This document shows, piece after piece, positions 3,938 through 58,567 of a stretch of DNA of 64,000 nucleotides. The position numbers were made by a program, and so were the translations under genes. Positions within the stretch are counted from its first letter, which is position 1; every line of letters begins with the position of its first letter. The notes under the pieces were generated by a model. The model was not told the DNA's origin, ran no database searches, and saw nothing but the letters and a program-made list of their open reading frames with translations. The DNA comes from Rufibacter immobilis (GTDB lineage Bacteria; Bacteroidota; Bacteroidia; Cytophagales; Hymenobacteraceae), in contig NZ_RJJE01000017.1 in NCBI RefSeq assembly GCF_003721565.1, positions 1 through 64,000 of the forward strand, given 5' to 3'.

Positions 3938-4001
3938 AAAAAGCGTCGGCCGTTTAGGGGCTGTTTTTGGAAAAACAGCCCCTAAACGGCCGACGCTTTT
4001 T
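3938..4001. repeat. palindromic element, symmetric copy with extended stem
   Basis: The core cgtttaggggctgttttt is at 3951-3968 and its complement runs to 3988. The stem is lengthened by 13 locus-specific base pairs on each side (3938-3950 with 3989-4001), ending in A and T tracts. It lies between convergent genes, 13 bases beyond the stop of the TerC-type gene, and probably acts as a bidirectional terminator. Confidence 0.9.
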
Positions 4002-4014
4002 CAATAGACAATGA

Positions 4015-4980
4015 TTATGCTTGCGTTGAGTCTTCTTCCTGGTTAGGTAGTGGTACGGCCGGAGCGTCTTTTTTAGGGAACAACAGCGACAGGATAACCG
4101 ATATCGCTAAGATAAACGCCACAACCCCCAAGGCAATGCGCATGTCTAGGTGAATCACGTCTGAGAGCACCAGCTTAAGCCCGATGAATACCAGAATAAG
4201 CGACAACCCGTAGTGCAGGTAGTGGAAGAGCTGCATAATGCCCGCCAACGCAAAATAGAGCGCCCGCAAACCCAGCAGGGCGAAAACGTTAGACGTGTAC
4301 ACAATAAACGGATCTTTAGAGATAGCCAGAATAGCCGGGATAGAGTCAGCGGCGAAGACAATGTCTGTGGTTTCCACCATGATCAGGACCAGGAACAACG
4401 GCGTGGCGAAGATGGTCTTGTCAATCTTCACAAAGAACTTGTCGCCATAGTGCCGGTTGGTCACGGGCATGTAGCGGCTCACGAACTTCACCACGGGGTT
4501 AGCCTCGGGGTCAATGTCATCATCGCCGGAGGAGAAGGCCATTTTAATACCCGTGAAGACCAGGAAACCGCCCAGGATGTAGATAATGAAGTGGAACTTA
4601 GCAATAAGCGTCACGCCCACCAGAATGAAGACTGCCCTAAAGAACAAGGCCCCCAGCACTCCCCAGAACAAGATCTTGTGCTGCACCGAGGAAGGCACCT
4701 TGAAGAAATTGAAGATAAGGATGAAGACAAACAGGTTGTCTACGCTCAGAGACTTCTCAATCAGATAAGCCGTCAGGAATTCCAGCGCTGGAGTGCTGCC
4801 TCGCCAGTAATAGATGCCCACGTTGAAGGCTAAGGATAAAGCAATCCAGAAGGCACTCCAAAGCAGCGCCTCTTTAATCTTGACCACGTGGCTTTTGCGG
4901 TGGAAGACAAAGAGGTCCAAGGCCAGCAGGATTAGGACGAAGGCGTTGAAGCCTATCCAGAATATGATGTCTGTTTTCAA
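4015..4980 (-). CDS. TerC/Alx-family integral membrane protein
   Basis: Polytopic inner-membrane protein of 321 residues, about eight to nine hydrophobic segments, of the TerC family linked to metal (manganese, calcium) or tellurite handling. The diagnostic motifs are EKSLSVDNLFVF near residue 75 and the ETTDIVFAADSIPAI block near residue 205, whose acidic residues are thought to bind metal in the membrane. The C-terminal tail is short, acidic and polar. No other ter genes are near, so a tellurite role is not implied; Alx-like manganese export is the more likely guess. It appears monocistronic and ends at a palindromic element. Confidence 0.9.
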   Translation of the reverse strand: MKTDIIFWIGFNAFVLILLALDLFVFHRKSHVVKIKEALLWSAFWIALSLAFNVGIYYWRGSTPALEFLTAYLIEKSLSVDNLFVFILIFNFFKVPSSVQHKILFWGVLGALFFRAVFILVGVTLIAKFHFIIYILGGFLVFTGIKMAFSSGDDDIDPEANPVVKFVSRYMPVTNRHYGDKFFVKIDKTIFATPLFLVLIMVETTDIVFAADSIPAILAISKDPFIVYTSNVFALLGLRALYFALAGIMQLFHYLHYGLSLILVFIGLKLVLSDVIHLDMRIALGVVAFILAISVILSLLFPKKDAPAVPLPNQEEDSTQA

Positions 4981-5123
4981 AGCTGTAGGTGAATAGTGAT
5001 GACAGAAAAGCTACTCTGTTAATAGGGCAAATTACCGCAGGCAGAGTACGCTCCTCCAGGATTAAAAGGGAAAGATACACAGGAACGGCGGCAAAACCAT
5101 GAAAAAAGGCGCCGCTGCAAATC

Positions 5124-5160
5124 CGTTTAGCGGCTATTTTTCTGAAATAGGCCCCAAAAC
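5124..5160 (+). repeat. palindromic element, asymmetric copy
   Basis: The left arm cgtttagcggctattttt is clear, while the right arm has decayed to ggccccaaaac. It lies 13 bases beyond the stop of the minus-strand GT2 gene. Confidence 0.7.
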
Positions 5161-5172
5161 AGAACCAGGTTT

Positions 5173-5904
5173 TTATCTGTTGAACCGCCGGAAAAAGCTG
5201 GAGACCTTCATCTGGATGACTCCCAGAAAAGCTTCCCTAATAATGCCTTTGCTCATTTTAGACTGGCCTCTGGTTCTATCTGTGAAGATGATGGGTACTT
5301 CCTTGATCCTAAACCCGAACTTATAGGTCAGAAACTTCATCTCAATCTGGAAGGCATACCCAATAAAACGAATCTGGTCAAGGTTGATGGTTTCCAGTAC
5401 CTGACGCGAGTAGCATTTAAAACCGGCGGTGGCGTCATGAATGGGCATGCCAGTAATGAGGCGCACATAGCGGCTGGCAAAATAGGAGAGGAGCACCCGG
5501 CTCATAGGCCAATTAACTACATTCACGCCGCTGCTGTAACGGCTGCCAATGGCCAGGTCATACCCATCCACCGCGCAGGCGTCATGGAGCTTTATAAGAT
5601 CATCTGGGTTGTGGGAGAAATCAGCGTCCATCTCAAAGATGTACCGGTAGCCAGCGCGCAAGGCGTATTTAAACCCGTGGATGTAGGCGGTACCCAGCCC
5701 CAATTTGCCTTTGCGCTGCTCCAGGAAGAGCCGGTCAGGGAACTCAGCCTGCAGACGCATCACCGCTTGGGCTGTGCCGTCTGGCGAGTTATCATCTATG
5801 ATGAGCAAGTGGAAAGGGTGTGGCAATGAGAAAACTTTCCGGATTATGGCTTCTATGTTCTCTATTTCATTGTAGGTCGGGATGACCACCACAGACTCTT
5901 TCAT
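5173..5904 (-). CDS. polyprenol-phosphate mannosyltransferase-like GT2 enzyme
   Basis: Cytoplasmic family 2 glycosyltransferase of 243 residues, closest to dolichol/polyprenol monophosphomannose synthases, which transfer mannose from GDP-mannose to a lipid phosphate. It shows the N-terminal VVVIPTYNEIENI strand, the IDDNSPDGTA nucleotide-binding motif, the DADFSHNPDD metal-binding motif, and a C-terminal IIFTDRTRGQSKMS block typical of DPM1-like enzymes. It lacks C-terminal membrane segments, like the short DPM1 type. It lies 24 bases downstream of hemG on the same strand and is probably cotranscribed. The substrate is inferred from the family. Confidence 0.88.
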   Translation of the reverse strand: MKESVVVIPTYNEIENIEAIIRKVFSLPHPFHLLIIDDNSPDGTAQAVMRLQAEFPDRLFLEQRKGKLGLGTAYIHGFKYALRAGYRYIFEMDADFSHNPDDLIKLHDACAVDGYDLAIGSRYSSGVNVVNWPMSRVLLSYFASRYVRLITGMPIHDATAGFKCYSRQVLETINLDQIRFIGYAFQIEMKFLTYKFGFRIKEVPIIFTDRTRGQSKMSKGIIREAFLGVIQMKVSSFFRRFNR

Positions 5905-5928
5905 CCCCCAAATATAGGCGAAACGGCT

Positions 5929-7269
5929 TTATTGGAGGGAAGCCCGCTGGGAATATATTTTTTGGGCCAGCTGCTTGGCGTACCGTACACAGTCAGGCAC
6001 CGCGGGGCCAGAGATCCAATTGGCGCAGGCGTACAGTTGCTCCTGCTCCATGAGCTGGGCCAGTTGGTGTACGTCTGTAATGAACATGTCTGCCTGGGGT
6101 AGCGCCTGCGGCCAATGGTGTAAATGCTGAAATACTGGGAGATTGGCAGAGATAGCGTAGTTCTCCTTGAGTTCTTCATGCACGCGCAGCAGAACTTCGG
6201 CCTCCGGCAGACAGGCGTTTTCGGCGGCCGCGCCACCTCCCACAAAAGAAGTGAACAGCACCTCATCATCTGGGCATATACGCGGAAATGAGGAACTGCT
6301 CCAGAAGGTGCCCATGCTGAACGGTTGCTCTTTCTGCGGATGCAGGGCCCCTAAACCATCCAGGGGAAATCCTACGGAGTGCTTCCTATAAGCAGTTTGC
6401 ACCACCGCCATGGGCACGTAATTCACGTTGTGCAGAGCCGCCGCCAGGCCGGGAGTGGTAAAATCCAGGAGTTCTGCGGCGGCGTGCGCGGGCAGGGCAA
6501 TGACCACGGCGTCAAATTCCTCATCGGCTAAGCCTTCAACATCATGTTCAATGCTCAAAAGGTATTTGCCTTTGGCCCGATGGATCATCTCCACTTTGTG
6601 GTCTACGTGCAGCGAGATCAGTTTAGAGGCAATGGCGTTGGGCAATGTCTGTAACCCCTGGAGCAGGGAGAAAACAGGCTTTTGGGGTAGTTCCTGCTCT
6701 AAATCCAAACCTCTCAGCACCGATCCGTGGGCTCTTTCCAGCTCCTTCAGATGGGGAAAGGTTTTCTCCAGCAACAGCTTCTCCGGGTCACCGGCAAAAT
6801 GGCCTGCCACCAGAGGGTCTACCAGGTAATCTACCACCTCCTGCCCAAAACGCCGCCGAAAAAAGTTGCTCACTGTTTCCTCGGGGACTTCCTGCGCCGG
6901 AATGTTGGCCTCCTGCGTAATCTGGAGTTTGGTGCGCCAATGGAAGAACGAGTCTAAGATTAACTTGCGCGGCGAGGCGGGAAGCCGATGATAGCTGCCG
7001 TCTTTTTTGATGTAGCGGTCCTGGGTTTTAGTGGCGGGCCTGATGATTTCGTCTTCCAGCTTGAGTTCCTGTAACAGTTCCTGCAGTTCCTCATTCATGT
7101 GCAGGGAATGTGGACCCAGTTCCAGCTGGTAAGCCCCTTTTTTGGCGCTTTTGATGAGGCCCCCCACCTCGGGCTCACTTTCAAAAAGGTCATAGCGTAC
7201 CCCTAGCTTCTGGAGATAGTAAGCCAATGCCAATCCGGATATTCCTGCTCCAATAATAGCGACGCGCAT
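5929..7269 (-). CDS. hemG: protoporphyrinogen oxidase (HemY-type flavoprotein)
   Basis: FAD-dependent enzyme of 446 residues for the late haem pathway, oxidising protoporphyrinogen IX (or coproporphyrinogen III; the sequence alone does not separate these). The N-terminal dinucleotide-binding motif VAIIGAGISGLALAYYL is at residues 3-19, followed by FESEPEVGG. The C-terminal HHWPQALPQ and CANWISGPAVPDCV segments fit the oxidase family. An upstream in-frame Met at 7326 adds 19 unlikely residues; I chose ATG 7269 because it places the FAD motif at the N terminus. It is divergent from the HAD phosphatase gene and upstream of the GT2 gene. Confidence 0.92.
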   Translation of the reverse strand: MRVAIIGAGISGLALAYYLQKLGVRYDLFESEPEVGGLIKSAKKGAYQLELGPHSLHMNEELQELLQELKLEDEIIRPATKTQDRYIKKDGSYHRLPASPRKLILDSFFHWRTKLQITQEANIPAQEVPEETVSNFFRRRFGQEVVDYLVDPLVAGHFAGDPEKLLLEKTFPHLKELERAHGSVLRGLDLEQELPQKPVFSLLQGLQTLPNAIASKLISLHVDHKVEMIHRAKGKYLLSIEHDVEGLADEEFDAVVIALPAHAAAELLDFTTPGLAAALHNVNYVPMAVVQTAYRKHSVGFPLDGLGALHPQKEQPFSMGTFWSSSSFPRICPDDEVLFTSFVGGGAAAENACLPEAEVLLRVHEELKENYAISANLPVFQHLHHWPQALPQADMFITDVHQLAQLMEQEQLYACANWISGPAVPDCVRYAKQLAQKIYSQRASLQ

Positions 7270-7400
7270 GGGGGACAATTTGTGTGCTGCCCCTTCGTAC
7301 GCAAGAGCGGCCCCCGCGTTATACACGCATACCAGAGAAAATAGTCCAAAATTACGTTAAGGGCAAGAAATGCCGCTTAGGAATGGCTATTTTTGGGCCA

Positions 7401-7937: not shown

Positions 7938-7965
7938 GGACGGGAGGGCAAATCCATCTCCATTT

Positions 7966-8027
7966 AAAGCCGAAGTGCGTTTAGGGGCTCTTTTTCCAAA
8001 AACAGCCCCTAAACGCACTTCGGCTTT
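7966..8027. repeat. palindromic element, symmetric copy with extended stem
   Basis: The core gtttaggggctcttttt and its complement are extended by locus-specific arms aaagccgaagtgc / gcacttcggcttt. It lies between convergent genes (HAD phosphatase and small lipoprotein) and ends in a T tract, so it is terminator-like. Confidence 0.88.
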
Positions 8028-8040
8028 CCCTCTAAAATAG

Positions 8041-8069
8041 AAAGCCCCGGAAGAAGACTTCCGGGGCTT
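8041..8069 (-). terminator. terminator of small lipoprotein gene
   Basis: A 12-bp stem (aagccccggaag / cttccggggctt) followed on the minus strand by a T-rich run. It lies 26 bases past the stop of the lipoprotein gene. Confidence 0.75.
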
Positions 8070-8095
8070 CAGATATATGCTATGGCAGAAGAACG

Positions 8096-8260: not shown

Positions 8261-8345
8261 ATAGTTATTGTCCAACATTTGAGGTATTCTACTTCAAATC
8301 TACGATTTTAGTTTAGGATTGTGAGAGATTTGAAAGAAAAAAATC

Positions 8346-10812: not shown

Positions 10813-10817
10813 TACAG

Positions 10818-12614
10818 ATGAAACAACTTGAGAACCAGATTGCCCAGGCGCTGAGCCAGGCCTTGCAAAATACTTTTCAGCATGCGCTCCCCGCAGAGCA
10901 AATCAACCTGCAGCCTACCCGCAAGGAGTTTGCCGGTACGTTTACCTTTGTCACTTTCCCGCTCACCAAAGCCCTGGGCAAAGGCCCGGAGCAGATAGGG
11001 CAGGCGCTGGGCGAAACCTTGACCCAGAACGCGCCGCAGGTGGCGGGCTATAACGTAGTCAAAGGTTTCCTCAACATTGAGATCAAAGACAGCGTGTGGC
11101 TGCAGCAGTTCGCGGAGCAGGTGAGCGGTTTTGAGGCAAATTCTGAAAAAACGGCTCCTAAACGCAAAGTGGTGGTAGAGTACTCTTCACCTAACACCAA
11201 CAAGCCGCTGCACCTGGGCCACCTGCGCAACAACTTCCTGGGCTACTCCGTGGCCGAGATCCTGAAGGCCGCCGGATATGACGTAATCAAAGCCAACCTG
11301 GTGAACGACCGTGGTATCCACATCTGCAAGTCCATGATCGCCTATGAGAAGTTCGGGCAGGGCGAGACGCCGCAGAGCTCCGGCATTAAAGGCGACCACC
11401 TGGTGGGGAAATACTACGTGGAGTTCGACAAAGCCTATAAAAAAGAGATAGACGAACTGGTGGCGCAAGGCATGGACAAGGAGCAGGCCAAAAAGCAGGC
11501 TCCGCTCATGCTGGAAACCCAGAAAATGCTCCAGAAATGGGAACAGCATGACCCCGCTACCATTGCCTTGTGGGAAAAGATGAACGGCTGGGTGTACGAG
11601 GGCTTCAACGCCACCTATAAAAACATAGGCGTAGACTTTGACAAGTTCTACTATGAGTCTGGGACGTATCTGCTGGGCAAAGACCGCGTGGAGGAAGGCC
11701 TGGAGAAAGGCGTGTTCTTCAAAAAGCCCGATGGCTCGGTGTGGATTGACCTCACGGAGGAAGGCCTGGACGAGAAACTGGTGCTCCGTGCCGACGGCAC
11801 TTCTGTCTACATCACGCAGGACCTCGGCACCGCCGAACTCAAATACCAGGATTTCCACTATGACCAGTCTGTGTACGTGGTGGCCGATGAGCAGAATTAC
11901 CATTTCCAGGTGCTTAAGGCCATCCTGAAGAAACTACAGAAACCTTACGCCGACGGCATTTTCCACTTGTCTTACGGCATGGTAGACCTGCCCAGCGGCA
12001 AGATGAAGTCCCGGGAGGGAACCGTAGTGGACGCCGATGAACTGGTGCAGGAGATGATTGACACCGCCCGCCAGAAAACCGATGAACTGGGCAAGATTGA
12101 CGGTTTTACGGCCGAGGAAGCGCAGCAACTCTACCACACGCTGGCCATGGGTGCGCTCAAGTACTTCCTGCTCAAGGTAGACCCTAAAAAGCGGATGCTC
12201 TTCAACCCAGAGGAGTCCATCGATTTCAAGGGAAATACCGGTCCGTTCATCCAGTACACGCACGCGCGCATTGCCGCCATCCAGCGTAAGGCGAATGAGT
12301 TGGGCATCAGTTCAGACAGCGTCTCTTTCACCGGCATGGAACTGCTGCACGAAACCGAGCGCGAAGCCCTGATTCTGTTGAACTACGCAGATTCTATCAT
12401 TGACGAGGCCGCCCGTAACCATGCGCCGTCCATTATTGCGCAATACGCCTTTGACGTGGCCAAAGCCTACAACCGTTTCTATACCGAGGTGCCTATTTTC
12501 CAAGAGGCCAACGCGCAGGTGTTGAGCTTTAGAATTGCCTTGTCTGCCCAGGTGGCCAAAACCCTGAAGCGCATGATGGGGCTGTTGGGTATTGCCGTGC
12601 CGGAAAGAATGTAA
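10818..12614 (+). CDS. argS: arginyl-tRNA synthetase
   Basis: Class I aminoacyl-tRNA synthetase of 598 residues that charges tRNA-Arg. The N-terminal additional domain covers residues 1 to about 100. The catalytic domain begins at VVVEYSSPNTNKP, with the HIGH motif as HLGHLRNN and the KMSKS-like loop as KMKSREGTVV near residue 396. The C-terminal anticodon-binding domain (DALR) ends in LLGIAVPERM. Residues 103-116 (SGFEANSEKTAPKR), between the first two domains, are encoded by a reverse-oriented copy of the window's asymmetric palindromic element. The frame stays open, and the position is a linker where an insert would be tolerated. It is coupled to arginase. Confidence 0.96.
   Translation: MKQLENQIAQALSQALQNTFQHALPAEQINLQPTRKEFAGTFTFVTFPLTKALGKGPEQIGQALGETLTQNAPQVAGYNVVKGFLNIEIKDSVWLQQFAEQVSGFEANSEKTAPKRKVVVEYSSPNTNKPLHLGHLRNNFLGYSVAEILKAAGYDVIKANLVNDRGIHICKSMIAYEKFGQGETPQSSGIKGDHLVGKYYVEFDKAYKKEIDELVAQGMDKEQAKKQAPLMLETQKMLQKWEQHDPATIALWEKMNGWVYEGFNATYKNIGVDFDKFYYESGTYLLGKDRVEEGLEKGVFFKKPDGSVWIDLTEEGLDEKLVLRADGTSVYITQDLGTAELKYQDFHYDQSVYVVADEQNYHFQVLKAILKKLQKPYADGIFHLSYGMVDLPSGKMKSREGTVVDADELVQEMIDTARQKTDELGKIDGFTAEEAQQLYHTLAMGALKYFLLKVDPKKRMLFNPEESIDFKGNTGPFIQYTHARIAAIQRKANELGISSDSVSFTGMELLHETEREALILLNYADSIIDEAARNHAPSIIAQYAFDVAKAYNRFYTEVPIFQEANAQVLSFRIALSAQVAKTLKRMMGLLGIAVPERM
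11125..11166 (-). repeat. palindromic element inside argS
   Basis: The reverse complement begins gcgtttaggagccgtttt and continues tcagaatttgcctcaaaac, matching the asymmetric element at 40760-40797 over nearly its full length. It is read in frame as ArgS residues 103-116. Confidence 0.8.
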
Positions 12615-12622: not shown

Positions 12623-12668
12623 TTTCTGTTTCGGGGCTGTTTTTCCAAAAACGGCCCCGAAACAGAAA
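12623..12668. repeat. palindromic element, symmetric copy with compensated change
   Basis: The stem reads tttctgtttcggggc / gccccgaaacagaaa. Compared with the core, A-to-C and the matching T-to-G changes keep pairing, which is evidence that the stem itself is under selection or copied as a unit. It lies 9 bases after the argS stop. Confidence 0.85.
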
Positions 12669-13346: not shown

Positions 13347-13385
13347 CAGTTTTAAGTGAATTCAGGAAAAACGGCCCCTAAACGG
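13347..13385 (-). repeat. palindromic element overlapping the menA start
   Basis: The reverse complement reads ccgtttaggggccgttttt and continues cctgaattcacttaaaactg, the asymmetric form. The menA GTG start (13356) and its first ten codons lie inside it. Confidence 0.75.
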
Positions 13386-14312: not shown

Positions 14313-14362
14313 GAAAGCCGTTTAGGGGCCGTTTTTTAGAAAACAGCCCCTAAACGGCTTTC
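14313..14362. repeat. palindromic element, symmetric copy
   Basis: Stem gaaagccgtttaggggc / gcccctaaacggctttc. It lies between the convergent menA and patatin genes and is terminator-like. Confidence 0.88.
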
Positions 14363-15661: not shown

Positions 15662-16105
15662 GATCTGATTTTTGAGAAGGTTTACCGTTGGGGAGAGGAA
15701 GCACTTTCATTCTTTCAGGCGTTGCATTCGCCTGCGGCGGAATCACTGGAAGAGATGATCTTGAAGGGGAAGACCATCGCCTTAAGGTCATTTGAGCCTG
15801 TGTTTCTACGCTGAAGAAGGCGAAGGAACAGAAAAGCAACTTCTGGGAACAGACACCATAAAAGCGGAAGGTAGGCAGTGTAACAGTGCGGGCAGCAGTT
15901 CTGTCAACCAGCCGGAGGGCCGGTGCCGGAGGGTAGATGTAGTAACCTAAGTTAAATTAATTACAGGAAGAAGCAAAATTATTCTACTACATTGAGAATA
16001 GACGTTTAGTGGAAAAGCATTTGCTTGTAATGCAACGAGGGCGTTTAGAGCCTGTTTTTGGAAAAACAGGCTCTAAACGCCCTCGCAAATAATAATCAGA
16101 AAAGC
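15662..16105. other. intergenic region between patatin and helicase genes
   Basis: No convincing coding sequence is visible over 444 bases. It should contain the promoter of the patatin gene and, at 16036-16085, a symmetric palindromic element that probably terminates the helicase transcript. The stretch 15940-16030 is AT-rich. Confidence 0.5.
16036..16085. repeat. palindromic element, symmetric copy with variant core
   Basis: Stem cgagggcgtttagagcctg / caggctctaaacgccctcg. The core differs from the consensus (gagcctg for ggggctg), yet both arms carry matching changes. It lies just past the stop of the minus-strand helicase gene. Confidence 0.87.
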
Positions 16106-20578: not shown

Positions 20579-20618
20579 CTGGTTTTTGCCCATTTTTGGA
20601 AAAACAGCCGCTAAACGC
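20579..20618 (-). repeat. palindromic element, asymmetric copy abutting a start codon
   Basis: The reverse complement begins tgcgtttagcggctgttttt and continues with a degenerate right arm ending in aaaaaccag. It ends immediately before the ATG of the CoA-transferase gene (20619) and opens an in-frame extension (MPIFGKTAAKR). Confidence 0.78.
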
Positions 20619-21818
20619 ATGAATGCAAACCAAGGTCTTTTCCATGATGTACTTGTAGTGGAGCTCGCCAGTGTGCTGGCTGGGCCCAGTGTGGGGCAGT
20701 TCTTCGCAGAAATGGGAGCCACGGTTCTTAAGGTAGAGAACATCAAAACCCGCGGTGACGTGACCCGAAGCTGGAAAGTATCATCAGAACCTGCGGAGGA
20801 CACGGTGTCCGCGTACTTTTCGGCGGCTAACTGGGGAAAGAAGTCACTGTGCGTAGACCTTTCGGTACCCAGGGTGCAGGCAATGGTGCATCAGATCATC
20901 GGTCAGGCAGATATTGTGCTGGTGAGCTTCAAACCCGGCGATGCCGAAAAACTGCGGATGGACTACAAAACTCTGGCGCAGCTGAACCCCCGGTTGCTCT
21001 ACGGGCACATTACCGGCTACGGAAGTGGTGAGCCCCGTGCCGGGTATGATGCCGTGCTCCAGGCCGAAGCCGGTTTTATGTTCCTGAACGGCGAGAAAGA
21101 CGGCGGCCCGCTAAAGATGCCGGTAGCTTTGATCGATCTCATGGCCGCCCACCAGTTGAAAGAAGGGGTGTTAGCTGCCTTGTATAGCCGCGAGAAAACC
21201 GGTAAAGGGCAGTATCTGGAAGTATCTTTGCTGCGGGCGGCGGTGGCGTCTTTGGCTAACCAAGCCACTAACTATCTGGTGGCTGGTTCTGCTCCGGTGC
21301 GTATGGGTTCTGAGCACCCCAATATTATGCCCTACGGAACGGTGTTCAAAACCGCCGACCAGAAAGAATTGGTGCTGGCCATTGGGGATGACCGGCAGTT
21401 TCAGGCGCTTTGTGGCCTTCTGGGGAAGCCGGAGTTGGCGCAGGAGCCTGCCTACAAAACGAACCGTCAACGGGTGAAGCATAGGGGGGAGCTTAATGAA
21501 GAGTTGGCCAAGCTCATATCAGGGCATGAGCGGGAAACTTTGTTGCAGGCGCTCATAGATCACCATGTGCCGGCGGGGGCGGTTAACACCGTGCCGGAGG
21601 CATTGGCCCAGCCTTTGGCGCAACCGCAATTATTTTCTCTGGAAGCGGTTGCAGGGGCGGGGGTGCGGCAGGTGGCTTTTGATGGCCCGGCTGTGCCGGC
21701 ATTGGCGCTGGCTCCGCCGCCGGTTTTGGGTCAGCATACCCATGAAATCTTGCAGAAAATGGCAGGCGTGACGGAACAGGAGCTGGAGGAAATGATCCAG
21801 GCAGGTTTGATCCTGTAG
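20619..21818 (+). CDS. CaiB/BaiF family III CoA-transferase
   Basis: Family III CoA-transferase of 399 residues that moves CoA between carboxylic acids. Family features include VLVVELASVLAGPSVGQFFAEMG at the N terminus, GADVxKVE-like TVLKVENIKTRGD, YDAVLQAEAGFM, and the ALIDLMAAHQLKEG block carrying the catalytic Asp. The substrate cannot be told from the sequence. An in-frame extension to 20586 is encoded by a palindromic element (MPIFGKTAAKR); I chose ATG 20619 because the family sequence begins just after it. It is followed after about 100 bases by a conserved hypothetical gene. Confidence 0.88.
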   Translation: MNANQGLFHDVLVVELASVLAGPSVGQFFAEMGATVLKVENIKTRGDVTRSWKVSSEPAEDTVSAYFSAANWGKKSLCVDLSVPRVQAMVHQIIGQADIVLVSFKPGDAEKLRMDYKTLAQLNPRLLYGHITGYGSGEPRAGYDAVLQAEAGFMFLNGEKDGGPLKMPVALIDLMAAHQLKEGVLAALYSREKTGKGQYLEVSLLRAAVASLANQATNYLVAGSAPVRMGSEHPNIMPYGTVFKTADQKELVLAIGDDRQFQALCGLLGKPELAQEPAYKTNRQRVKHRGELNEELAKLISGHERETLLQALIDHHVPAGAVNTVPEALAQPLAQPQLFSLEAVAGAGVRQVAFDGPAVPALALAPPPVLGQHTHEILQKMAGVTEQELEEMIQAGLIL

Positions 21819-22610: not shown

Positions 22611-22630
22611 GAAACTTGCCCTTATATAAG

Positions 22631-22687
22631 CCTGTAAGCCAGAGCGCCCGGTTAGATATGTTCTAACCGGGCGCTCTGGCTTACAGG
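22631..22687. terminator. strong hairpin terminator
   Basis: A 26-bp perfect stem (cctgtaagccagagcgcccg onwards, 22631-22656 with 22662-22687) and a 5-base loop, 20 bases after the hypothetical gene. It has no T tract of note. Confidence 0.78.
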
Positions 22688-22725
22688 GTGATCCTGATTG
22701 ACTTGGCTAAAACTGAATGCCTCCT

Positions 22726-22816
22726 GTTTAGGGGCTCTTTTTCTAAAATCAAAGCCAAACTAGTTCTGGTCATTATTCTTGGTTTTGCGCTGTTTCAGGA
22801 AAAAGAGCCCCTAAAC
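22726..22816. repeat. composite palindromic element with 57-base loop
   Basis: Full-length arms gtttaggggctcttttt (22726-22742) and aaaaagagcccctaaac (22800-22816) are perfectly complementary but separated by 57 bases. The first 30 bases of the loop look like the decayed right arm of an asymmetric copy (ctaaaatcaaagccaaac), as if a second right arm had been added. It lies between convergent genes. Confidence 0.75.
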
Positions 22817-26268: not shown

Positions 26269-26308
26269 CTGGTTTTCGTCTATTTTTATAAAAACAAGCT
26301 CTAAACGG
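26269..26308 (-). repeat. palindromic element, asymmetric degenerate copy
   Basis: The reverse complement begins ccgtttagagcttgttttta and continues with a decayed arm ending in gaaaaccag. It lies 18 bases ahead of the lipoprotein start codon. Confidence 0.65.
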
Positions 26309-26979: not shown

Positions 26980-27017
26980 CGTTTAGCGGCCGTTTTTCCA
27001 AAAAAGGCCGCTAAACG
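26980..27017. repeat. palindromic element, symmetric copy with compensated change
   Basis: Stem cgtttagcggccgttttt / aaaaaaggccgctaaacg. The G-to-C change in gtttagcggc is matched in gccgctaaac. It lies between the ygiB-like and ygiC-like genes and could attenuate readthrough. Confidence 0.87.
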
Positions 27018-28280: not shown

Positions 28281-28320
28281 GCGTTTAGCGGCTCTTTTTT
28301 CAGAATTTGGCCCAAACTGG
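28281..28320 (+). repeat. palindromic element, asymmetric copy
   Basis: Reads gcgtttagcggctctttttt then cagaatttggcccaaactgg, a clear example of the asymmetric form. It lies between the ygiC-like and flavin reductase genes. Confidence 0.78.
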
Positions 28321-29550: not shown

Positions 29551-29591
29551 TCCGTTTTGGCCTTAATTTAAGAAAAAGAGCCGCTAAACCG
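29551..29591 (-). repeat. palindromic element, asymmetric copy
   Basis: The reverse complement reads cggtttagcggctctttttc followed by ttaaattaaggccaaaacgga. It lies 24 bases ahead of the YdeI-family start and in its sense direction. Confidence 0.72.
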
Positions 29592-29662: not shown

Positions 29663-29703
29663 CCTGTTTTGGGTCAGATTCCGGAAAAACGGCCGCTAAA
29701 CGC
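29663..29703 (-). repeat. palindromic element, asymmetric copy
   Basis: The reverse complement reads gcgtttagcggccgtttttc, then a degenerate arm ggaatctgacccaaaacagg. It is in the tauE promoter region, and only 72 bases from the previous copy. Confidence 0.72.
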
Positions 29704-32061: not shown

Positions 32062-32109
32062 ATTCCCGTTTAGGGGCTGTTTTTCCAAAATCGGCCCCTA
32101 AACGGGAAT
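32062..32109. repeat. palindromic element, symmetric copy
   Basis: Stem attcccgtttaggggc / gcccctaaacgggaat, between the convergent CstB-like and membrane-protein genes, 16 bases past the first stop. Terminator-like. Confidence 0.88.
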
Positions 32110-34035: not shown

Positions 34036-34734
34036 GGCATTTGGGGTTTTCCTACATGTGGAGCGGGCGAGGTCGGTTTACACCTGTTTTGGAAAAATAA
34101 CTCTCTAAATAGCACATACACTTACTTACCTTAGATGAGCGAGGTTTGTCCTTCAGAATTGAATCTTTATATCTGGGAGCCTCGCGGCCGTGGGGTAGCC
34201 ATTGCCTCAGAATATGCTTATTCCTGTCTGCAAAGTTGCTAATGATGGGCTGGATGAGTCTTGGAAGCTCATCTGTGTGTTGGTCTTTTGCTATCTGTTC
34301 TGTAGCTACGACAGTAGTTTTGGATCTATTGCATGTCTTCTCTTGGTTCCTCCAAATTAGCGGACGTTAGGCGGGTACCACTTCCCGAAATGGATGAAGA
34401 GGCTCTATGCTTCCAATGTCAAAAAAACAGCAGAAATACGCGGCTGAAGGGACTAATTCTGAGGTGGTCTCCGGCAAATACTGGTTTTTCAGGTATAGAT
34501 ACCTGTCTTTCTCCCTCTCTTAAACTATAGGTATAGCCCCGCGTAAATTTCCAACCTGCAGTTGGCTCAGGCACGCTGTAGGTGAGAAATTTAACTAAAT
34601 CTATAGGGCAAGAAGAGTGTGCAGCTGCCTCTTTGCAGAATTTTTACCAATAGTTCTGCCAGAGATGGGACATCTACAGGTTTATTCTTTCCTAAAGATT
34701 AACCTGTAGCCGTTCTAGCCTCAACGTAAGCTAT
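34036..34734. other. 700-base intergenic region, possibly decayed coding DNA
   Basis: No convincing gene. Short overlapping frames on the plus strand look partly natural: MSEVCPSELNLYIWEPRG at 34135-34242 and MLIPVCKVANDGLDESWK at 34214-34360, in different frames, as expected of a gene broken by small indels. None matches a family I know. A weak palindromic-element relic is at 34072-34112 and an inverted repeat at 34674-34709 (ctacaggtt / aacctgtag) lies just ahead of the GH1 gene. Confidence 0.4.
34674..34709. promoter_or_regulatory. inverted repeat upstream of GH1-SDR gene
   Basis: A 9-bp inverted repeat, ctacaggtt and aacctgtag, with an 18-base centre, 25 bases ahead of the ATG at 34735. 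It could be an operator or leader hairpin; no regulator gene is adjacent. Confidence 0.35.
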
Positions 34735-37115: not shown

Positions 37116-37159
37116 TTCCGTTTAGGGGCTGTTTCTCCAAAAAGAGCCCCTAAACGGAA
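37116..37159. repeat. palindromic element, symmetric copy
   Basis: Stem ttccgtttaggggct / agcccctaaacggaa between the convergent GH1-SDR gene and the next minus-strand gene. Terminator-like. Confidence 0.88.
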
Positions 37160-39874: not shown

Positions 39875-39916
39875 CCTGTTTAGGGGCTCTTTTTCTGAAA
39901 ACAGGCCCAAAACAGG
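39875..39916 (+). repeat. palindromic element, asymmetric copy
   Basis: Reads cctgtttaggggctcttttt then ctgaaaacaggcccaaaacagg; the outer arms cctgttt / aaacagg pair. It lies 20 bases ahead of the purine nucleoside phosphorylase ATG. Confidence 0.78.
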
Positions 39917-40759: not shown

Positions 40760-40797
40760 CGTTTAGCGGCTCTTTTTTCGGAATTTGCCTCAAACCA
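40760..40797 (+). repeat. palindromic element, asymmetric copy
   Basis: Reads cgtttagcggctctttttt then cggaatttgcctcaaaccag. It is the closest relative of the copy embedded in argS (11125-11166). Confidence 0.78.
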
Positions 40798-40814: not shown

Positions 40815-40867
40815 AACCAGCAGAAGCGGGTCCTTTTAATCAGGGGCGTTTCTGCTGGTTTTTTTGT
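40815..40867 (+). terminator. terminator of punA
   Basis: Stem aaccagcagaa / ttctgctggtt, followed by a run of T, about 60 bases past the stop. Confidence 0.78.
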
Positions 40868-41152
40868 GGTTGCCGTTGGCTGATGCCTTGGCTGTGGCGT
40901 TTGTCTATGGGTTTAATGGCTGTAGTGTTTCATCTTTTCTGGTAAGCGCTCACGGCCGCGGGGCCCCGTCTTCCCCTCTCGCACTGCCCTTGTGGCCATG
41001 TAATGCAGCTTCCTCTTAGCTCTTACTTTTCTTTGGCCACAAGCGAGGCGCTCGAAGGAAAGACTGGAAATGGTGCGTTTAGCAGCGGCAGTTCTTACTG
41101 GAGGCTGTTTCAGATTCTTTAGAAGAGAACATATATCATTGGAGACTGGCGC

Positions 41153-41197
41153 GAGTCTCCAGACTCATGCCTCCGGATGAGGGGGAGTCTCCAGACT
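41153..41197 (+). repeat. local direct repeat
   Basis: The 13-mer gagtctccagact occurs twice (41153-41165 and 41185-41197) with a centre containing catgcctccggatg. The flanking ggagact at 41141 and the gagtctcc parts can pair, so it may be a fragment of another dispersed repeat. No gene is associated. Confidence 0.5.
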
Positions 41198-41270
41198 ACC
41201 CTCGCTGCCACGCAGCGAAAACGGGATGGCAAAGTCCAATAGGAGCAGAGTAAATTGACGAGGAATCAGC

Positions 41271-41314
41271 TCCTGTTTAGGGGCTGTTTTTGGAAAAAGA
41301 GCCTCTAAACAGGA
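41271..41314. repeat. palindromic element, symmetric copy
   Basis: Stem tcctgtttaggggct / agcctctaaacagga with one G-U-type mismatch. It ends 2 bases before the 3' end of the minus-strand DUF4249 gene. Confidence 0.85.
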
Positions 41315-41315
41315 A

Positions 41316-44729: not shown

Positions 44730-44769
44730 GCGTTTAGGAGCCGTTTTTGAAAAAGGAGCCGCTAAACGC
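44730..44769. repeat. palindromic element, symmetric but imperfect copy
   Basis: Outer arms gcgtttag / ctaaacgc pair perfectly; the inner parts gagccg and gagccg do not, so the copy is partly decayed. Confidence 0.72.
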
Positions 44770-44776: not shown

Positions 44777-44965
44777 ATGGCAAGAGCATCAGAACATAAT
44801 AAGGGTATTCATATAGAATGCGATAACCAAGAACAGTTTAAAAGGAAAACCCTGCGTTTAAGGGCCGTTTTTCTGAAAACAGCCCCTAAACGCAGGGTAG
44901 ATCTGTTGCTCATTCTTAATGGTGAACCCCACTTGCCAGGGGCGAACGGAGGATCATATCAATAA
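44777..44965 (+). CDS. possible small protein interrupted by a palindromic element
   Basis: A 62-codon frame, MARASEHNKGIHIECDNQEQ at its start, with the palindromic element 44849-44898 read through in frame as the segment TLRLRAVFLKTAPKRR. The tail VDLLLILNGEPHLPGANGG looks protein-like. If real, the ancestral protein without the element would be about 46 residues. No family is recognised and no ribosome-binding site is seen; it may be chance. The KTAPKR stretch is the same one the element encodes in ArgS and MenA. Confidence 0.3.
   Translation: MARASEHNKGIHIECDNQEQFKRKTLRLRAVFLKTAPKRRVDLLLILNGEPHLPGANGGSYQ
44849..44898. repeat. palindromic element, symmetric copy
   Basis: Stem accctgcgtttaagggc / gcccctaaacgcagggt. 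It lies 94 bases past the stop of the minus-strand M61 gene. Confidence 0.87.
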
Positions 44966-47039: not shown

Positions 47040-47077
47040 GGTTTAGGGGCCGTTTTTCCGGAATCAGGCCTAAACCG
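47040..47077. repeat. palindromic element, imperfect copy
   Basis: ggtttaggggccgtttttcc, then ggaatcaggcctaaacc; the outer arms ggtttagg / cctaaacc pair. Confidence 0.72.
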
Positions 47078-47175: not shown

Positions 47176-47215
47176 GCGTTTAGGGGCTCTTTTTTCAAAA
47201 ACAGCCCCTAAACGC
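47176..47215. repeat. palindromic element, symmetric copy
   Basis: Stem gcgtttaggggct / agcccctaaacgc with a T-rich/A-rich inner arm, 17 bases past the thioredoxin stop on the minus strand. Confidence 0.88.
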
Positions 47216-47619: not shown

Positions 47620-47656
47620 GCGATTAGGGGCTCTTTTTTCAAAACAGAGCCTGAAG
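47620..47656 (+). repeat. palindromic element, decayed copy
   Basis: gcgattaggggctctttttt / aaaacagagcctgaagc; the left arm is clear and the right arm partly decayed. It lies in the upstream region of the esterase gene. Confidence 0.6.
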
Positions 47657-47702
47657 CAGGCGGTTGACCAGGAACTTATCCTGGGGATAGATCCTTTTTT
47701 AT

Positions 47703-50588: not shown

Positions 50589-50661
50589 CTAAAAAGCCTT
50601 GCCTGCGTTTAGGGGCTGTTTTTCCAAAAACGGCCTCTAAACGCAGGCAAGGCTTTTTTAG
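50589..50661. repeat. palindromic element, symmetric copy with long extension
   Basis: The longest stem in the window: the core is extended by 16-18 locus-specific base pairs, ctaaaaagccttgcctg on the left and its complement on the right, ending in A/T tracts. It follows the MerR gene by 11 bases and is an evident terminator. Confidence 0.9.
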
Positions 50662-54761: not shown

Positions 54762-54766
54762 TAGTC

Positions 54767-55612
54767 ATGCGTCAGCTACAGGTACATATCGATCCGAATT
54801 CAGGCTTTTGCTTTGGGGTAATCTACGCCATCCAGATGGCTGAGGACCTATTGGAGGAACAGGGTTACCTGTACTGCCTGGGCGACATTGTGCACAATGA
54901 CGAGGAAGTGGAGCGTTTGCAAAACAAAGGCCTGCGCATCATCAACTATGACACGCTGGGTACCCTGCGCGACGAGGCCGTCCTCATTAGGGCCCACGGC
55001 GAACCGCCCTCTACATACCAGACGGCCATGGAGAACAACCTCACCCTGATTGATGCTTCCTGCCCGGTGGTACTCAAATTGCAGAACCGCATCAAAACCT
55101 CTTTTGACAAGAAAGAGCAGATCTTTATCTACGGAAAGCACGGCCACGCCGAAGTACTGGGGCTGCTGGGCCAGACCAATAACCAAGCGGTGGTTTTTGA
55201 GAACATGGAGGAACTGCTGCGGCATGAGCTTCCCCAGAACATTACGCTCTACAGCCAGACTACCAAAAGCACCGATAATTTCTACCGCATTAAGCATGAG
55301 CTGGAGAGCCGCGGCTATTCTGTAGCTGCCAATGATACTATCTGCCGCCAGGTTTCCAACCGGGATAAGGAGCTACGCCGTTTCGCCCAGCAATATGATA
55401 AAGTGGTGTTCGTGTCCGGGACCAAATCATCTAACGGGCGGGTGCTGTACCAGGTCTGCAAAGACACCAACCCCAATACGTATTTTGTCTCCAAGGTAGA
55501 GGAACTGCAGCCCGGTTGGTTTGAAGACGGAAACAGAATTGGTATTTGCGGGGCCACCTCCACGCCCATGTGGCTGATGCAGGAAGTACGAGATGCGCTA
55601 CTGGCGTTTTAA
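54767..55612 (+). CDS. ispH: 4-hydroxy-3-methylbut-2-enyl diphosphate reductase
   Basis: Iron-sulfur enzyme of 281 residues, last step of the MEP isoprenoid pathway, making IPP and DMAPP. The three cluster-binding Cys are in NSGFCFGVIYA near residue 15, DASCPVV near residue 98 and DTICRQVSNRD near residue 193. Conserved IRAHGEPP and GTKSSNGRVLY flank them. Location within the crt operon makes sense as a boost in precursor supply for carotenoids. It starts 5 bases after the broken cyclase frame and is followed by an asymmetric palindromic element and crtW. Confidence 0.96.
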   Translation: MRQLQVHIDPNSGFCFGVIYAIQMAEDLLEEQGYLYCLGDIVHNDEEVERLQNKGLRIINYDTLGTLRDEAVLIRAHGEPPSTYQTAMENNLTLIDASCPVVLKLQNRIKTSFDKKEQIFIYGKHGHAEVLGLLGQTNNQAVVFENMEELLRHELPQNITLYSQTTKSTDNFYRIKHELESRGYSVAANDTICRQVSNRDKELRRFAQQYDKVVFVSGTKSSNGRVLYQVCKDTNPNTYFVSKVEELQPGWFEDGNRIGICGATSTPMWLMQEVRDALLAF

Positions 55613-55615
55613 AGT

Positions 55616-55655
55616 GCGTTTAGCGGCTCTTTTTCCAGAATTTGGCCTAAACTGT
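55616..55655 (+). repeat. palindromic element, asymmetric copy
   Basis: Reads gcgtttagcggctctttttc then cagaatttggcctaaactg. It lies 3 bases past the ispH stop and 80 bases ahead of crtW. Confidence 0.76.
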
Positions 55656-55735
55656 GGCGGTGCACCTGAGGCCAACGGAAGCAGAACGCGCTCGTTTTCG
55701 TACATTGGCAGGGAGGGAAAGAAAAAGAATCTGTT

Positions 55736-56449
55736 TTGACTCAATTTTTGCAGAAATATACCGGTATCATCATCGCGTTCGCCATTATGGCGGCCTGGGG
55801 AAGTACGCTCTGGTTGCTGCTGCACTGGCAGGTAGATCTCAAATCTGTGCTCATCTATCTGGCCGTGTTACTGATGATGCACCTCTACACCGGGCTGTTC
55901 ATCACGGCCCATGATGCCATGCACGGGGTGGTGGCGCCGGGGAACAAGAAACTGAACACCTTCATAGGAACGGTTACCGCGGGCTTGTTCGCCTATAATT
56001 ACTACGGAAGGCTGTACCCCAAACACCACCAACACCACCGCCACGTAGCCACCGACCAAGACCCCGACTACCATGGCGGGAATTTTTTCCTCTGGTTTCT
56101 GAGTTTCGCCCGGCAATACATTACCGTATGGCAGATCTTGCTCATGGCGGGGACTTACCATCTGCTGCAACACTGGTTTCCGTTGGAGAACATCATTCTG
56201 TTCTGGATGCTGCCGGCCGTGCTGGCTACTTTTCAGCTGTTTTACTTCGGGACGTACCTGCCGCACCGGGGTGAGCATGAACCAGGGAACAGACACAGAT
56301 CAGGGACCCAGCGCCGCAACCATGTCTGGGCTTTTTTAAGCTGCTATTTCTTCGGGTACCACTATGAGCACCATGACAAACCCTACCTGCCCTGGTGGAA
56401 ACTGTACCAGGAGAAAGACCGCCTCCTGAAAGAAAATGAACGCGTTTAG
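55736..56449 (+). CDS. crtW: beta-carotene ketolase
   Basis: Membrane di-iron ketolase of 237 residues that introduces 4-keto groups. His motifs: FITAHDAMHG near residue 57, PKHHQHHRHVA near residue 98, and YHYEHHDKPYLPWW near residue 206; the YLPHRGEHEPGNRH segment is also typical. The start is TTG 55736, since no ATG fits. The stop codon TAG (56447-56449) is contained in the left arm of a palindromic element, so the last two codons (Arg-Val) and stop come from it. It follows ispH on the same strand after 123 bases. Confidence 0.93.
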   Translation: MTQFLQKYTGIIIAFAIMAAWGSTLWLLLHWQVDLKSVLIYLAVLLMMHLYTGLFITAHDAMHGVVAPGNKKLNTFIGTVTAGLFAYNYYGRLYPKHHQHHRHVATDQDPDYHGGNFFLWFLSFARQYITVWQILLMAGTYHLLQHWFPLENIILFWMLPAVLATFQLFYFGTYLPHRGEHEPGNRHRSGTQRRNHVWAFLSCYFFGYHYEHHDKPYLPWWKLYQEKDRLLKENERV

Positions 56450-56538
56450 AGGCTGTTTTTGGAAAAAGAGCCCCTAAACGTAAATTCCCCGGAAAAGCGA
56501 GCAGCAGCTCAGCCCTTCCGGGGAATTTACGTTTAGGG
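56443..56538. repeat. palindromic element with three arms after crtW
   Basis: Arm A (56443 onward, cgtttagaggct) pairs with arm B (ending 56480, agcccctaaacg). Arm B extended, ccctaaacgtaaattccccg onward, also pairs over about 21 bp with arm C ending at 56538. The two hairpins exclude each other. A contains the crtW stop codon. The M1 peptidase gene is convergent. Confidence 0.82.
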
Positions 56539-56552
56539 AATCGTGCCAGATT

Positions 56553-58424
56553 CTATTTCACCTCATACACGTTGTCTCTGGGGTTGGTGTCTGGGATGTA
56601 GGTGCCTTTGAGTTCCAGCTTTTTCACGGCTTTGGTAGGGGTGAACTCCACCTGTACCGTGGTATTGCCTTTCTCCCACACAGAGATATCCCGTTTTACT
56701 TTGCTGGTAGTATTGTCTGCGTACGTGATGTTCAGCTCTACGGGAACTGGCTTGGTGCCTTTGGCTTCCACGGTTACCTGGTATTGAGTACCGTTTTTCT
56801 GCACGTGGGCAATGGCCAGATCAGGAATGCCGTCGTCAAAGAACCAGCGTTTCCAGAACCAGTTGAGGTTGCGGCCGGCCCCGGCATTCATGGAGTTGAA
56901 GAAGTCCCAGGGCAGCGGGTGCTTGCCGTTCCAGTTCCGGATGTAGGTGTGCAGCGCCTTGGTGAACAGCTCATTGCCCAGCATTTCCTTCACATAAAGA
57001 TACCCGAAGGCGGGTTTAGGGTAGGAGTTCAGGTAAAATGCTGCCCCCGTCTGTTGCGTGGAGAGCGTAGTGATAGGCAAATCAACCTCCGTGCCTGCCA
57101 TCATAGAGTAGGGCTGCACGCCGTAATCGTCTACCAGTTTGGGTTCAATGATGGAGGAGATGATCCACTCCCCAATGGTGGCCCAGCCTTCGTCCATCCA
57201 GCCGTACTTGGTTTCATTGGTACCCATGTAGAACGGGAACATAGTGTGAAAGATCTCATGGTCGGTGAGGGTGATGGCGTCTTCGCGGGTGGCCACCGGG
57301 TTGTCATTCACCATCATGGGGTATTCCATTTGGTCCAGGCCGTCAAAGATGGTTTCATGCGAGTAAGGGAAAGGCCACTTGGGAAACGTGTAGCTCATGG
57401 CCTCCACAGTTTTGCGCGCGAAATGGATCACCTCCTCAAAGTCTTTGTGCGCCGGGTTGAAAGCCACATCTACGCGGGTACGGCGTTTGGTAGCGGGATC
57501 TACCACTAAGCTGGTGGCGTTCCAGAGATAATGGTCAGACGTGGCGAAGGCGAAATCCACCACATTTTTGGCCTCAAACTTCCAAGTGTTCTGGGTGTTT
57601 TTGGCGGTGATGTCGCGGCGCTTGAGGTCTGTGCTGTCAATGATGGCAACAATGGCGTCTTTCTTCTCGGCGTCTTGCAGGCGCTTGGCGTACTTCTTGG
57701 TGAATACTTCCGAAGCGTTTTTCAGGTCGCCGGTGGCCCATACCACAAAATGCTGCGGCACGGTGATCTCCACATTGAAGTTGCAGAAGTCATTGTAGAA
57801 TTCCTGCGGCCCCAGATAGGGGATGCGGTTCCAGCCGTCTACATCATCATACACGGCAATGCGCGGGAAAAAATAGGCCAGAAAAGCGGCTCCGGCTTCG
57901 TCTACCTGCCCGGTGCGGTTATGGGAGCCAGCGTTCAGCTGGTAATGGTAGGCCAGACTGAAACGGCCTTTCTGCTTAGGGGCAAGCGGCTTAATGCGCA
58001 CGGTCATGTTGGTGTTCTCCATGCGCAGTTTCTGAACATCCTGCGGCTCCTGGTTCACATTCAGGCGCTCAATCTGGACACCTTCGCTCACATCTTTCGG
58101 GTCAATTCCGTTCGCGCGGGGGGCACCTTTCTGGTACAGGTTGGGGTAGAGCTTGAAAACAATCTGCTTGAGTGTGTCTGAGCTGTTGTTGGTGTAGTCA
58201 ATCTCTACGGTGCCGGCTACTCTGCGCGAGGCCGGGTCATACTGAACCTTGATGGTGTAGTCGGCGGTGTTCTGCCAATAGTTTTTTCCGGGCGAGCCGT
58301 CTGCTTGGCGGGTTCCCTTTTGATAGGCTACCTCAATGTTGCGGGGCATGGGCAACTGCTGTGCAAAGGAACGGGCGCTGCCCGAGAGGGTGGCAACGAA
58401 AAGTAAATATTTCGCGATTTTCAT
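56553..58424 (-). CDS. M1-family aminopeptidase
   Basis: Exported zinc aminopeptidase of 623 residues starting at ATG 58424, with signal peptide YLLFVATLSGSARSFAQ. The catalytic HExxH is HEIFH at residues 389-393, and the third ligand Glu412 is in WMDEGWATIGEW, 19 residues further on. The GAMEN-like substrate loop reads DQMEYPMMVND, and a C-terminal barrel-like part follows. The upstream frame to 58493 would add 23 unlikely residues. It may trim peptides in the periplasm. Convergent with crtW, sharing the element above. Confidence 0.92.
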   Translation of the reverse strand: MKIAKYLLFVATLSGSARSFAQQLPMPRNIEVAYQKGTRQADGSPGKNYWQNTADYTIKVQYDPASRRVAGTVEIDYTNNSSDTLKQIVFKLYPNLYQKGAPRANGIDPKDVSEGVQIERLNVNQEPQDVQKLRMENTNMTVRIKPLAPKQKGRFSLAYHYQLNAGSHNRTGQVDEAGAAFLAYFFPRIAVYDDVDGWNRIPYLGPQEFYNDFCNFNVEITVPQHFVVWATGDLKNASEVFTKKYAKRLQDAEKKDAIVAIIDSTDLKRRDITAKNTQNTWKFEAKNVVDFAFATSDHYLWNATSLVVDPATKRRTRVDVAFNPAHKDFEEVIHFARKTVEAMSYTFPKWPFPYSHETIFDGLDQMEYPMMVNDNPVATREDAITLTDHEIFHTMFPFYMGTNETKYGWMDEGWATIGEWIISSIIEPKLVDDYGVQPYSMMAGTEVDLPITTLSTQQTGAAFYLNSYPKPAFGYLYVKEMLGNELFTKALHTYIRNWNGKHPLPWDFFNSMNAGAGRNLNWFWKRWFFDDGIPDLAIAHVQKNGTQYQVTVEAKGTKPVPVELNITYADNTTSKVKRDISVWEKGNTTVQVEFTPTKAVKKLELKGTYIPDTNPRDNVYEVK

Positions 58425-58517
58425 GAAAAGCGAGCGTTGTAGTTGATGGGGTGGACGGACAAAGTATAAAGGTAACCTGTTTTTCCGTTGCATTTACTTG
58501 TTTGCCAAGAAGAAAAG

Positions 58518-58567
58518 AAAAGCCGTTTAGGGGCTGTTTTTTCAAAAACAGCCCCTAAACGGCTTTT
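58518..58567. repeat. palindromic element, symmetric copy
   Basis: Stem aaaagccgtttaggggctg / cagcccctaaacggctttt, near perfect and with A/T tracts. It follows the minus-strand esterase gene by about 110 bases. Confidence 0.9.

Follow-up and report, generated by a model that had tools for sequence, protein, structure and literature searches.

HIP1 of cyanobacteria is a highly iterated 8-bp palindrome whose function is unclear. Other iterated sequences are the DNA uptake sequences (DUS) of Neisseriaceae and the uptake signal sequences (USS) of Pasteurellaceae; uptake sequences have dialects (PMC3630211) and, in the part of a second account used here, are described as preferring permissive core sites and as absent from recently acquired genes (PMC2397512). 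Repetitive extragenic palindromes (REPs) carrying a CGTC tag have been reported in some Bacteroidetes, and the relevant part of their description gives them stems of 8 to 9 bp, loops of 4 to 5 nt and unpaired ends, with no dedicated transposase (PMC3733652). Here we analyze a dispersed 36-bp palindromic element in a 64-kb window of Rufibacter immobilis (the whole stretch of 64,000 nucleotides under study), and follow it through the rest of the genome and its relatives.

By analogy with uptake signals, we give close to an even chance to the reading that this element is a genus-wide, two-fold symmetric DNA recognition site of Rufibacter, akin to uptake or self-recognition signals and spread by molecular drive. 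It is probably neither a mobile REP or REPIN (a REP doublet forming a hairpin) nor simply a terminator.

A two-armed element with species dialects

The geometry of the element is fixed as GTTT-N8-TTTT-N4-AAAA-N8-AAAC, i.e., two 16-nt arms around 4 nt, and in R. immobilis the arm reads GTTTAGsGGCys. A dispersed palindromic family had been proposed from the window alone, and all 25 of the coordinates given in that original prediction (14 symmetric, 11 asymmetric) coincide with the 36-bp element. A position weight matrix finds 32 copies in the window, one of them weak (34075, 14.5 bits). As the only relative that has this interval carries a copy at nearly the same offset, the weak match suggests a decayed copy rather than chance. 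The expected further copies were found in the full 4.77-Mb genome, where searching with a strict own-dialect pattern yields 763 matches on the forward strand and 750 on the reverse (reversed control, 0); these numbers refer to arms and not to copies, because symmetric copies can match both strands. With a matrix trained on the own genome, 254 copies were counted in 544 kb, or 4.67 per 10 kb (reversed control, 0), which extrapolates to about 2,200 copies per R. immobilis genome; the same extrapolation from stretches gives roughly 2,000 to 4,500 per Rufibacter chromosome. The matrices were trained on the same chromosomal stretches in which the copies were counted, and gene calls came from a hexamer script that undercalls (73% coding in the 544 kb). 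Density ranged from 1.0 to 6.5 per 10 kb among 25 stretches of the own genome and was about 5 in most of them. Two low-density stretches (L089 and L092) were considered as islands, a possibility that was set aside: Pfam names 5 of their 10 proteins, all ordinary, and none of the other 5.

Two forms exist, as had been claimed, since arm pairing is bimodal: among the 254 copies, 142 have at least 12 of their 16 positions paired (symmetric) and 112 have fewer (asymmetric). The GTTT and AAAC ends of symmetric copies are paired, making arms of 16 bp, and in 105 of the 112 copies of the asymmetric form both AA steps (22-23 and 33-34) are present. The view that no named family fits also stands, within the scope of the searches: Rfam at its gathering score has no match in the window, and among open PubMed Central papers, by titles and the starts of abstracts, no paper on this Rufibacter repeat turned up.

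We next consider the spread of the element among genomes. With matrices trained separately for each relative, density was 4.1 to 8.8 per 10 kb across 12 other Rufibacter genomes; shuffled controls gave 0 to 1 matches and reversed controls 0 to 6, the highest in the genome with the loosest matrix (G008). The own-dialect pattern matched 12 of 100 genomes of the family, all within one genus (16 genomes sampled), with at most 29 matches per strand outside the own genome. This search understates the spread of the element because relatives spell the arms differently. A covariance model built from 74 copies of six species gave at least 112 to 113 matches in each of 14 Rufibacter genomes out of 14. 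In 46 genomes of five other genera the model gave 0 to 7 matches (24 with any; best E value, 4.3e-8), which may be rare look-alikes. For each of these five genera, 80 kb of a single genome scanned with a generic matrix gave 0 to 2 matches above 10 bits, with 0 to 4 in reversed controls. The sampled genera of the same family thus hold nothing comparable. In a collection of 84,980 species, a degenerate palindrome pattern matched at least 80 loci; among those listed, 77 belong to Rufibacter, 2 to Sabulibacter ruber and 1 to Pontibacter harenae. The last lies at 4683-4718 of a 4,953-bp contig (L173) and is either genuine or contamination. The same pattern had a single match in viral contigs, at 1275-1310 of locus L223, between reading frames of a stretch that looks phage-like by eye.

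The commonest arm starts define the dialects. They are GTTTAGGGGCTG/C and GTTTAGCGGCTC in the own genome, GTTTTCGGGCTC in relative G012, GTTTTTGGCCTG in both G006 and G037, GTTTTRGGCCTG in G005, and GTTTTGGGGCTG at the R. ruber loci, which were chosen by pattern match. Dialects are sharp in the own genome, G012, G006 and G037.

Conserved positions, origin by substitution and conjugative DNA

In syntenic stretches, copies often hold their offset to the flanking genes, and much of the surrounding intergenic sequence is unalignable by eye. Comparison with 12 relatives yielded 137 intervals with a copy in both genomes, against 100.1 expected from the marginal rates. The nearest offsets agreed to within 2 nt in 58 of these 137 intervals (6.6% under random placement) and to within 10 nt in 82 (24.1% under random placement). 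In 848 comparisons of orthologous copies, TT at 3-4 and 14-15 and AA at 22-23 and 33-34 differed in 2 to 7%, and all other positions in 15 to 62% (31 to 62% for positions 5 to 13); a score of 22 bits was needed for inclusion, which favors conserved positions, and, with genomes shared among them, the comparisons are not independent. The two arms tended to change jointly (1,845 cells versus 1,590 after permutation, maximum 1,653), and the 74-copy alignment holds 106 matched arm changes versus 56.9 after shuffling. The copy at 26981..27016 (+ strand; 15/16 pairs) exemplifies this: most of the species that have kept it show a symmetric form, with differing matched arms.

These features bear on the main rival, a serious one that we nevertheless consider unlikely: the element might be where a chromosome protein of global or architectural function, specific to the genus (a dimer or tetramer), binds and marks gene boundaries, with selection acting site by site and the dialect tracking the protein. 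The two-fold symmetry of the site and the slow-changing TT/AA steps, 11 bp apart in each arm, speak for it, the 137 shared intervals indicate that presence and absence are partly conserved by locus, and the absence of single arms and of strand bias among symmetric copies fits as well. However, each dialect shift would then need thousands of sites to follow.

The copies within genes allow insertion to be told from substitution, because an inserted copy predicts a gene about 12 residues longer than its homologues from element-free genera. Three of the ten in-gene copies of the own genome were examined, in argS (11128..11163, - strand, encoding KTAPKR; 42.8 bits), in a methylmalonyl-CoA mutase gene (58.0 bits) and in a PALP gene (26.6 bits). 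Scoring required at least 12 bits, with the species' own matrix for genomes of the genus and the mean matrix for others. The argS copy, located in a linker, was found in 13/13 genus genomes (26.0 to 43.1 bits) versus 0/12 others, the copy at the N terminus of the mutase in 13/13 (13.4 to 57.9 bits) versus 0/10, and the PALP copy in 11/13 (absent from G006 and G037) versus 0/10, with G015 not located. Judged by eye, the argS segment measures 17 to 20 residues in 18 rows and 19 in the own genome, so that the gene is not longer; in the mutase, the segment that runs from the start as far as FYT (or the corresponding residues) measures 41 residues in the own genome and 38 to 42 in ten rows from other genera; and the PALP segment has 27 residues in those rows of the family that were checked, with a longer one in G015, a member of another family. 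As no element-sized change of length accompanies them, three of three copies point to an origin by substitution and not insertion. The same logic underlies a published gap analysis of the Haemophilus USS, the part of which used here reports that uptake sequences arise by substitution (PMC1626085).

Conjugative DNA was marked by TraM-type conjugation genes, present in 9 of 16 genomes, and sampled as 185 kb around such genes in six genomes, including contig C13 of R. immobilis. At 20 bits or more, this sample holds 2 copies versus 84.8 expected for its 56 comparable intergenic intervals, or about 138 when reckoned by intergenic bases, the expectation being set by the stretches on which the matrices were trained. 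At 12 bits, 10 copies were found versus about 115 expected from chromosomal density. Conjugative DNA would also require a general terminator, so its near-lack of copies speaks against such a role, as it does against an element that moves freely. In Neisseria, integrative conjugative elements are revealed by atypical DUS distributions, according to the portion of the report consulted (PMC7371117). The sole copy on contig C13 (L313:8198) has a foreign spelling, GTTTTGGGG, and was possibly imported from another Rufibacter.

The original prediction implied a mobile, REP-like element with a REP-associated tyrosine transposase (RAYT) as partner. The genome has one Y1_Tnp match, a RAYT of 181 residues on contig C1 (REP_Tyr_transpos, 98.7 bits; cut-off, 80) between reading frames that by eye resemble dnaE and trxA; this genome search found none on contig C10, which carries the window, and no separate search of the window was made. 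Element copies lie about 0.26 kb away from the gene on both sides. An old mobile palindrome similar to a REP or a miniature inverted-repeat transposable element (MITE), perhaps moved by RAYT in a burst in the ancestor of the genus and then retained, would account for these neighbors and for a short, palindromic, high-copy, genus-limited and mainly intergenic element. We regard it as very improbable. All three in-gene sites lack signs of insertion, conjugative DNA is nearly free of the element, and no clean empty site was found in the two closest pairs of genomes (82 to 84% identity), though many flanks there are unaligned; several of the apparent absences are low-scoring, coding-like matches, and others have poorly aligned flanks. 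At the 7 of 21 RAYT loci that are readable by motif, different palindromes lie closest to the gene (by eye), varying between most loci, and the 12 element copies within 1.5 kb of those 7 genes amount to about chromosomal density. Furthermore, G006 carries the element and has no Y1_Tnp match. With offsets kept across the genus in addition, the implied mobile reading is not borne out, and mobilization by RAYT was rejected as a candidate because other palindromes are closest to the gene at the readable loci.

Seven Rufibacter RAYT loci (L017, L062, L065, L066, L072, L075 and L079) show the gene amid differing short palindromes, which might be RAYT-REP pairs. A palindrome pattern modeled on those beside the RAYT of R. 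immobilis had no match in the 544 kb, and a RAYT search of the viral contigs found no relative.

Placement relative to genes and copies in the window

Among intergenic intervals of 60 to 1000 bp, a copy is present in 39 of 44 convergent, 114 of 179 tandem and 12 of 42 divergent ones. The paucity in divergent, promoter-bearing intervals is a further point against a chromosome protein that marks gene boundaries, as are the copies within argS and the mutase gene, which have no obvious boundary role. The symmetric form was said to stand at gene 3' ends, and indeed 69 of its 81 copies in tandem intervals are closer to the upstream stop (median, 29 nt). The asymmetric form does not lie mainly at gene starts as had been thought: the upstream stop is again the closer landmark for 44 of 66 tandem copies, and divergent genes flank only 13 of 112. 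Relative to transcription in tandem intervals, orientation is 41:40 for symmetric copies, i.e., without strand bias, and 40:26 for asymmetric ones.

The association with 3' ends could also reflect RNA hairpins at gene ends, acting as intrinsic or bidirectional terminators or as stabilizers of mRNA 3' ends, an explanation that we judge improbable. In its favor, symmetric copies go on pairing beyond the core, by a mean of 4.05 bp in tandem and 4.86 bp in convergent intervals, versus 0.64 to 0.77 bp in asymmetric intergenic copies, and matched changes occur at one site across many species. In tandem symmetric copies, G.T versus A.C mismatches, read on the transcribed strand, number 31:20 (p=0.16); the subset with 13 to 15 pairs gives 28:12 in the own genome (p=0.017), and relatives give 37:31. 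Conversely, 112 of the 254 copies have fewer than 12 of their 16 positions paired, which is insufficient for a complete hairpin, and among tandem copies only 13 of 81 symmetric ones (5 on the opposite side) and 7 of 66 asymmetric ones are followed by a T-run. RNA hairpins would also leave unexplained the argS copy of all 13 genus genomes, the near-absence from conjugative DNA and the lack of the element at comparable density in the other genera sampled. A terminator detector fired about as often in divergent intervals, which makes the comparison of terminator displacement uninformative.

For each copy of the window, the offset was called kept when it agreed within 10 nt, and the fractions given below are relatives that keep it among those (up to 12) having the syntenic interval. 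Six copies are stable in this sense in at least eight relatives. Besides the symmetric copy at 26981 (9/12), these are 13348..13383 (-; 5/16 pairs; 9/9), between a stop codon and the region in which menA (TIGR00751) starts; 20581..20616 (-; 9/16 pairs; 8/8), an asymmetric copy 2 nt ahead of a start called at 20619; 26271..26306 (-; 9/16 pairs; 10/12), also asymmetric; 39878..39913 (+; 13/16 pairs; 11/11), 23 nt before a start codon, which had been classed as asymmetric (39875) in spite of its pairing; and 47622..47657 (+; 8/16 pairs; 9/11), asymmetric and between divergent genes.

The remaining symmetric copies include 3938..4001 (no strand assigned; 16/16 pairs; 2/4), whose arms extend to 31 nt around a core at 3952-3987, and 50607..50642 (+; 14/16 pairs; 1/6), also a palindrome longer than the core. 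Two lie between convergent genes, at 14320..14355 (+; 15/16 pairs; 1/1) and 32068..32103 (+; 14/16 pairs; 1/2). The others on the + strand are at 7979..8014 (15/16 pairs; 0/5), 12628..12663 (15/16 pairs; 1/8), 37120..37155 (14/16 pairs; 0/5), 44856..44891 (14/16 pairs; 1/12), 47178..47213 (15/16 pairs; 1/4) and 58525..58560 (16/16 pairs; 2/2), and those on the - strand at 16043..16078 (16/16 pairs; no relative with the interval) and 41275..41310 (14/16 pairs; 3/12). The copy at 56444..56479 (-; 14/16 pairs; 3/3) overlaps a stop codon.

Asymmetric copies are found at 5125..5160 (+; 11/16 pairs; 4/4), 12 nt from a stop; on the - strand at 3820..3855 (6/16 pairs, 37.3 bits; 1/4) and 22781..22816 (10/16 pairs; 2/11); and on the + strand at 22726..22761 (8/16 pairs; 3/11), 28283..28318 (7/16 pairs; 0/11), 40761..40796 (9/16 pairs; 1/12), 47041..47076 (9/16 pairs; 0/4) and 55618..55653 (6/16 pairs; 0/4). 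Two more are located between divergent genes, at 29554..29589 (-; 9/16 pairs) and 29666..29701 (-; 10/16 pairs), in an interval that no relative has. A further element is at 44732..44767 (-; 11/16 pairs; 0/12), and the weak, possibly decayed one is at 34075..34110 (-; 6/16 pairs; 1/1).

A second dispersed repeat occupies 40866-41315 of the window. It is about 150 to 440 bp long with a core at about 40926-41073, has no Rfam match in the window, and recurs in many more copies across the own genome as well as in further Rufibacter genomes, at least seven of them. Near-perfect long hairpins with arms of 27 to 38 nt and a sequence unlike the element are found at gene ends at 3748-3825, 22626-22692 and 95-154.

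A candidate recognition mark and its closest known relatives

In the mechanism that we propose, a putative receptor or recombination-linked protein would prefer DNA that carries the mark, and marked alleles would spread within the species by biased transfer (molecular drive). The mark would settle in tolerant sequence, such as that after stop codons or in protein linkers, and a shift in the preference of the receptor would let the sites drift in place to a new dialect. Symmetric copies may additionally serve as gene-end hairpins. Recognition would be of double-stranded DNA, because poorly pairing copies such as those at 13348 and 20581 persist, and spread by biased exchange is suggested because very many sites share the dialect of the species in permissive places. 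The more specific proposal of an independently evolved self-DNA recognition in Rufibacter, with a two-fold symmetric mark that has dialects and is kept by biased DNA exchange, is given somewhat less than an even chance. Uptake is the only precedent known to us that combines constraint, dialects, fixed places, an origin by substitution and exclusion from conjugative DNA.

Several observations weigh against recognition of an uptake-like mark. All 296 strict dialect arms examined lie within two-armed elements (0/296 solo), whereas uptake cores occur singly, and a half-site uptake signal was rejected on this ground. Only 10 of the 254 matches overlap genes (by at least 18 bp), and four of them score below 27 bits. 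Copies are no more evenly spaced than an interval-matched null predicts (dispersion of 1.121 versus 1.057 at 5 kb and 1.093 versus 1.109 at 10 kb); an earlier indication of more-than-random regularity stemmed from a first null inflated by uncalled genes, and was gone with the matched null. Dialects are loose in six relatives (20 to 30 bits), and 6 of the 28 testable copies of the window (7979, 28283, 37120, 44732, 47041 and 55618) have no counterpart at their offset. All 10 genomes tested for ComEC have it, including 5 from genera without the element at comparable density, so that it is not specific. Lastly, the excess of G.T mismatches hints at selection at the RNA level, in a weak and mixed manner.

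The papers used for comparison, in the parts seen, describe uptake-signal systems from two proteobacterial families. If our reading is correct, we know of no earlier uptake-signal-like system in Bacteroidota, and the one in Rufibacter would have a new two-armed architecture. How dialects shift over thousands of sites is an open question for uptake signals, and 13 genomes with graded dialects at orthologous sites make turnover, matched arm changes and conjugative exclusion traceable site by site. If the element were instead the site of a chromosome protein, it would represent a system that marks gene boundaries through a very large set of conserved sites. On either reading, the element offers an easy way to tell chromosomal from conjugative DNA by sequence in Rufibacter.

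Among known systems, HIP1 is likewise an iterated palindrome, of 8 bp versus 36 bp in Rufibacter. Intrinsic terminators consist of a hairpin followed by a T-run, an arrangement that most tandem copies lack. REPs and REPINs with their RAYT share with the element short intergenic palindromes at gene 3' ends, a high copy number and the RAYT in the genome. They differ from it by their unpaired GTAG or CGTC tag; the Rufibacter element has 16-bp arms and no sign of insertion, and the RAYTs of Rufibacter have other palindromes closest to them. CGTC-tagged REPs, like the element, are palindromes without a dedicated transposase, but the unpaired terminal tag and the stem of 5 to 13 bp that characterize CGTC and GTAG REPs are not found in it. 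The likeness is greatest with DUS and USS: copies run to thousands without orientation bias (4.1 to 8.8 per 10 kb; 41:40 for symmetric and 40:26 for asymmetric copies), have dialects, arise by substitution, occupy permissive sites of the core genome, are scarce in acquired DNA and take inverted forms where genes end. We nevertheless do not file the element with them, because it has no solo arms, few copies in genes and no even spacing. It is also a two-fold symmetric site of 36 bp, where DUS and USS have an asymmetric core of 9 to 12 bp.

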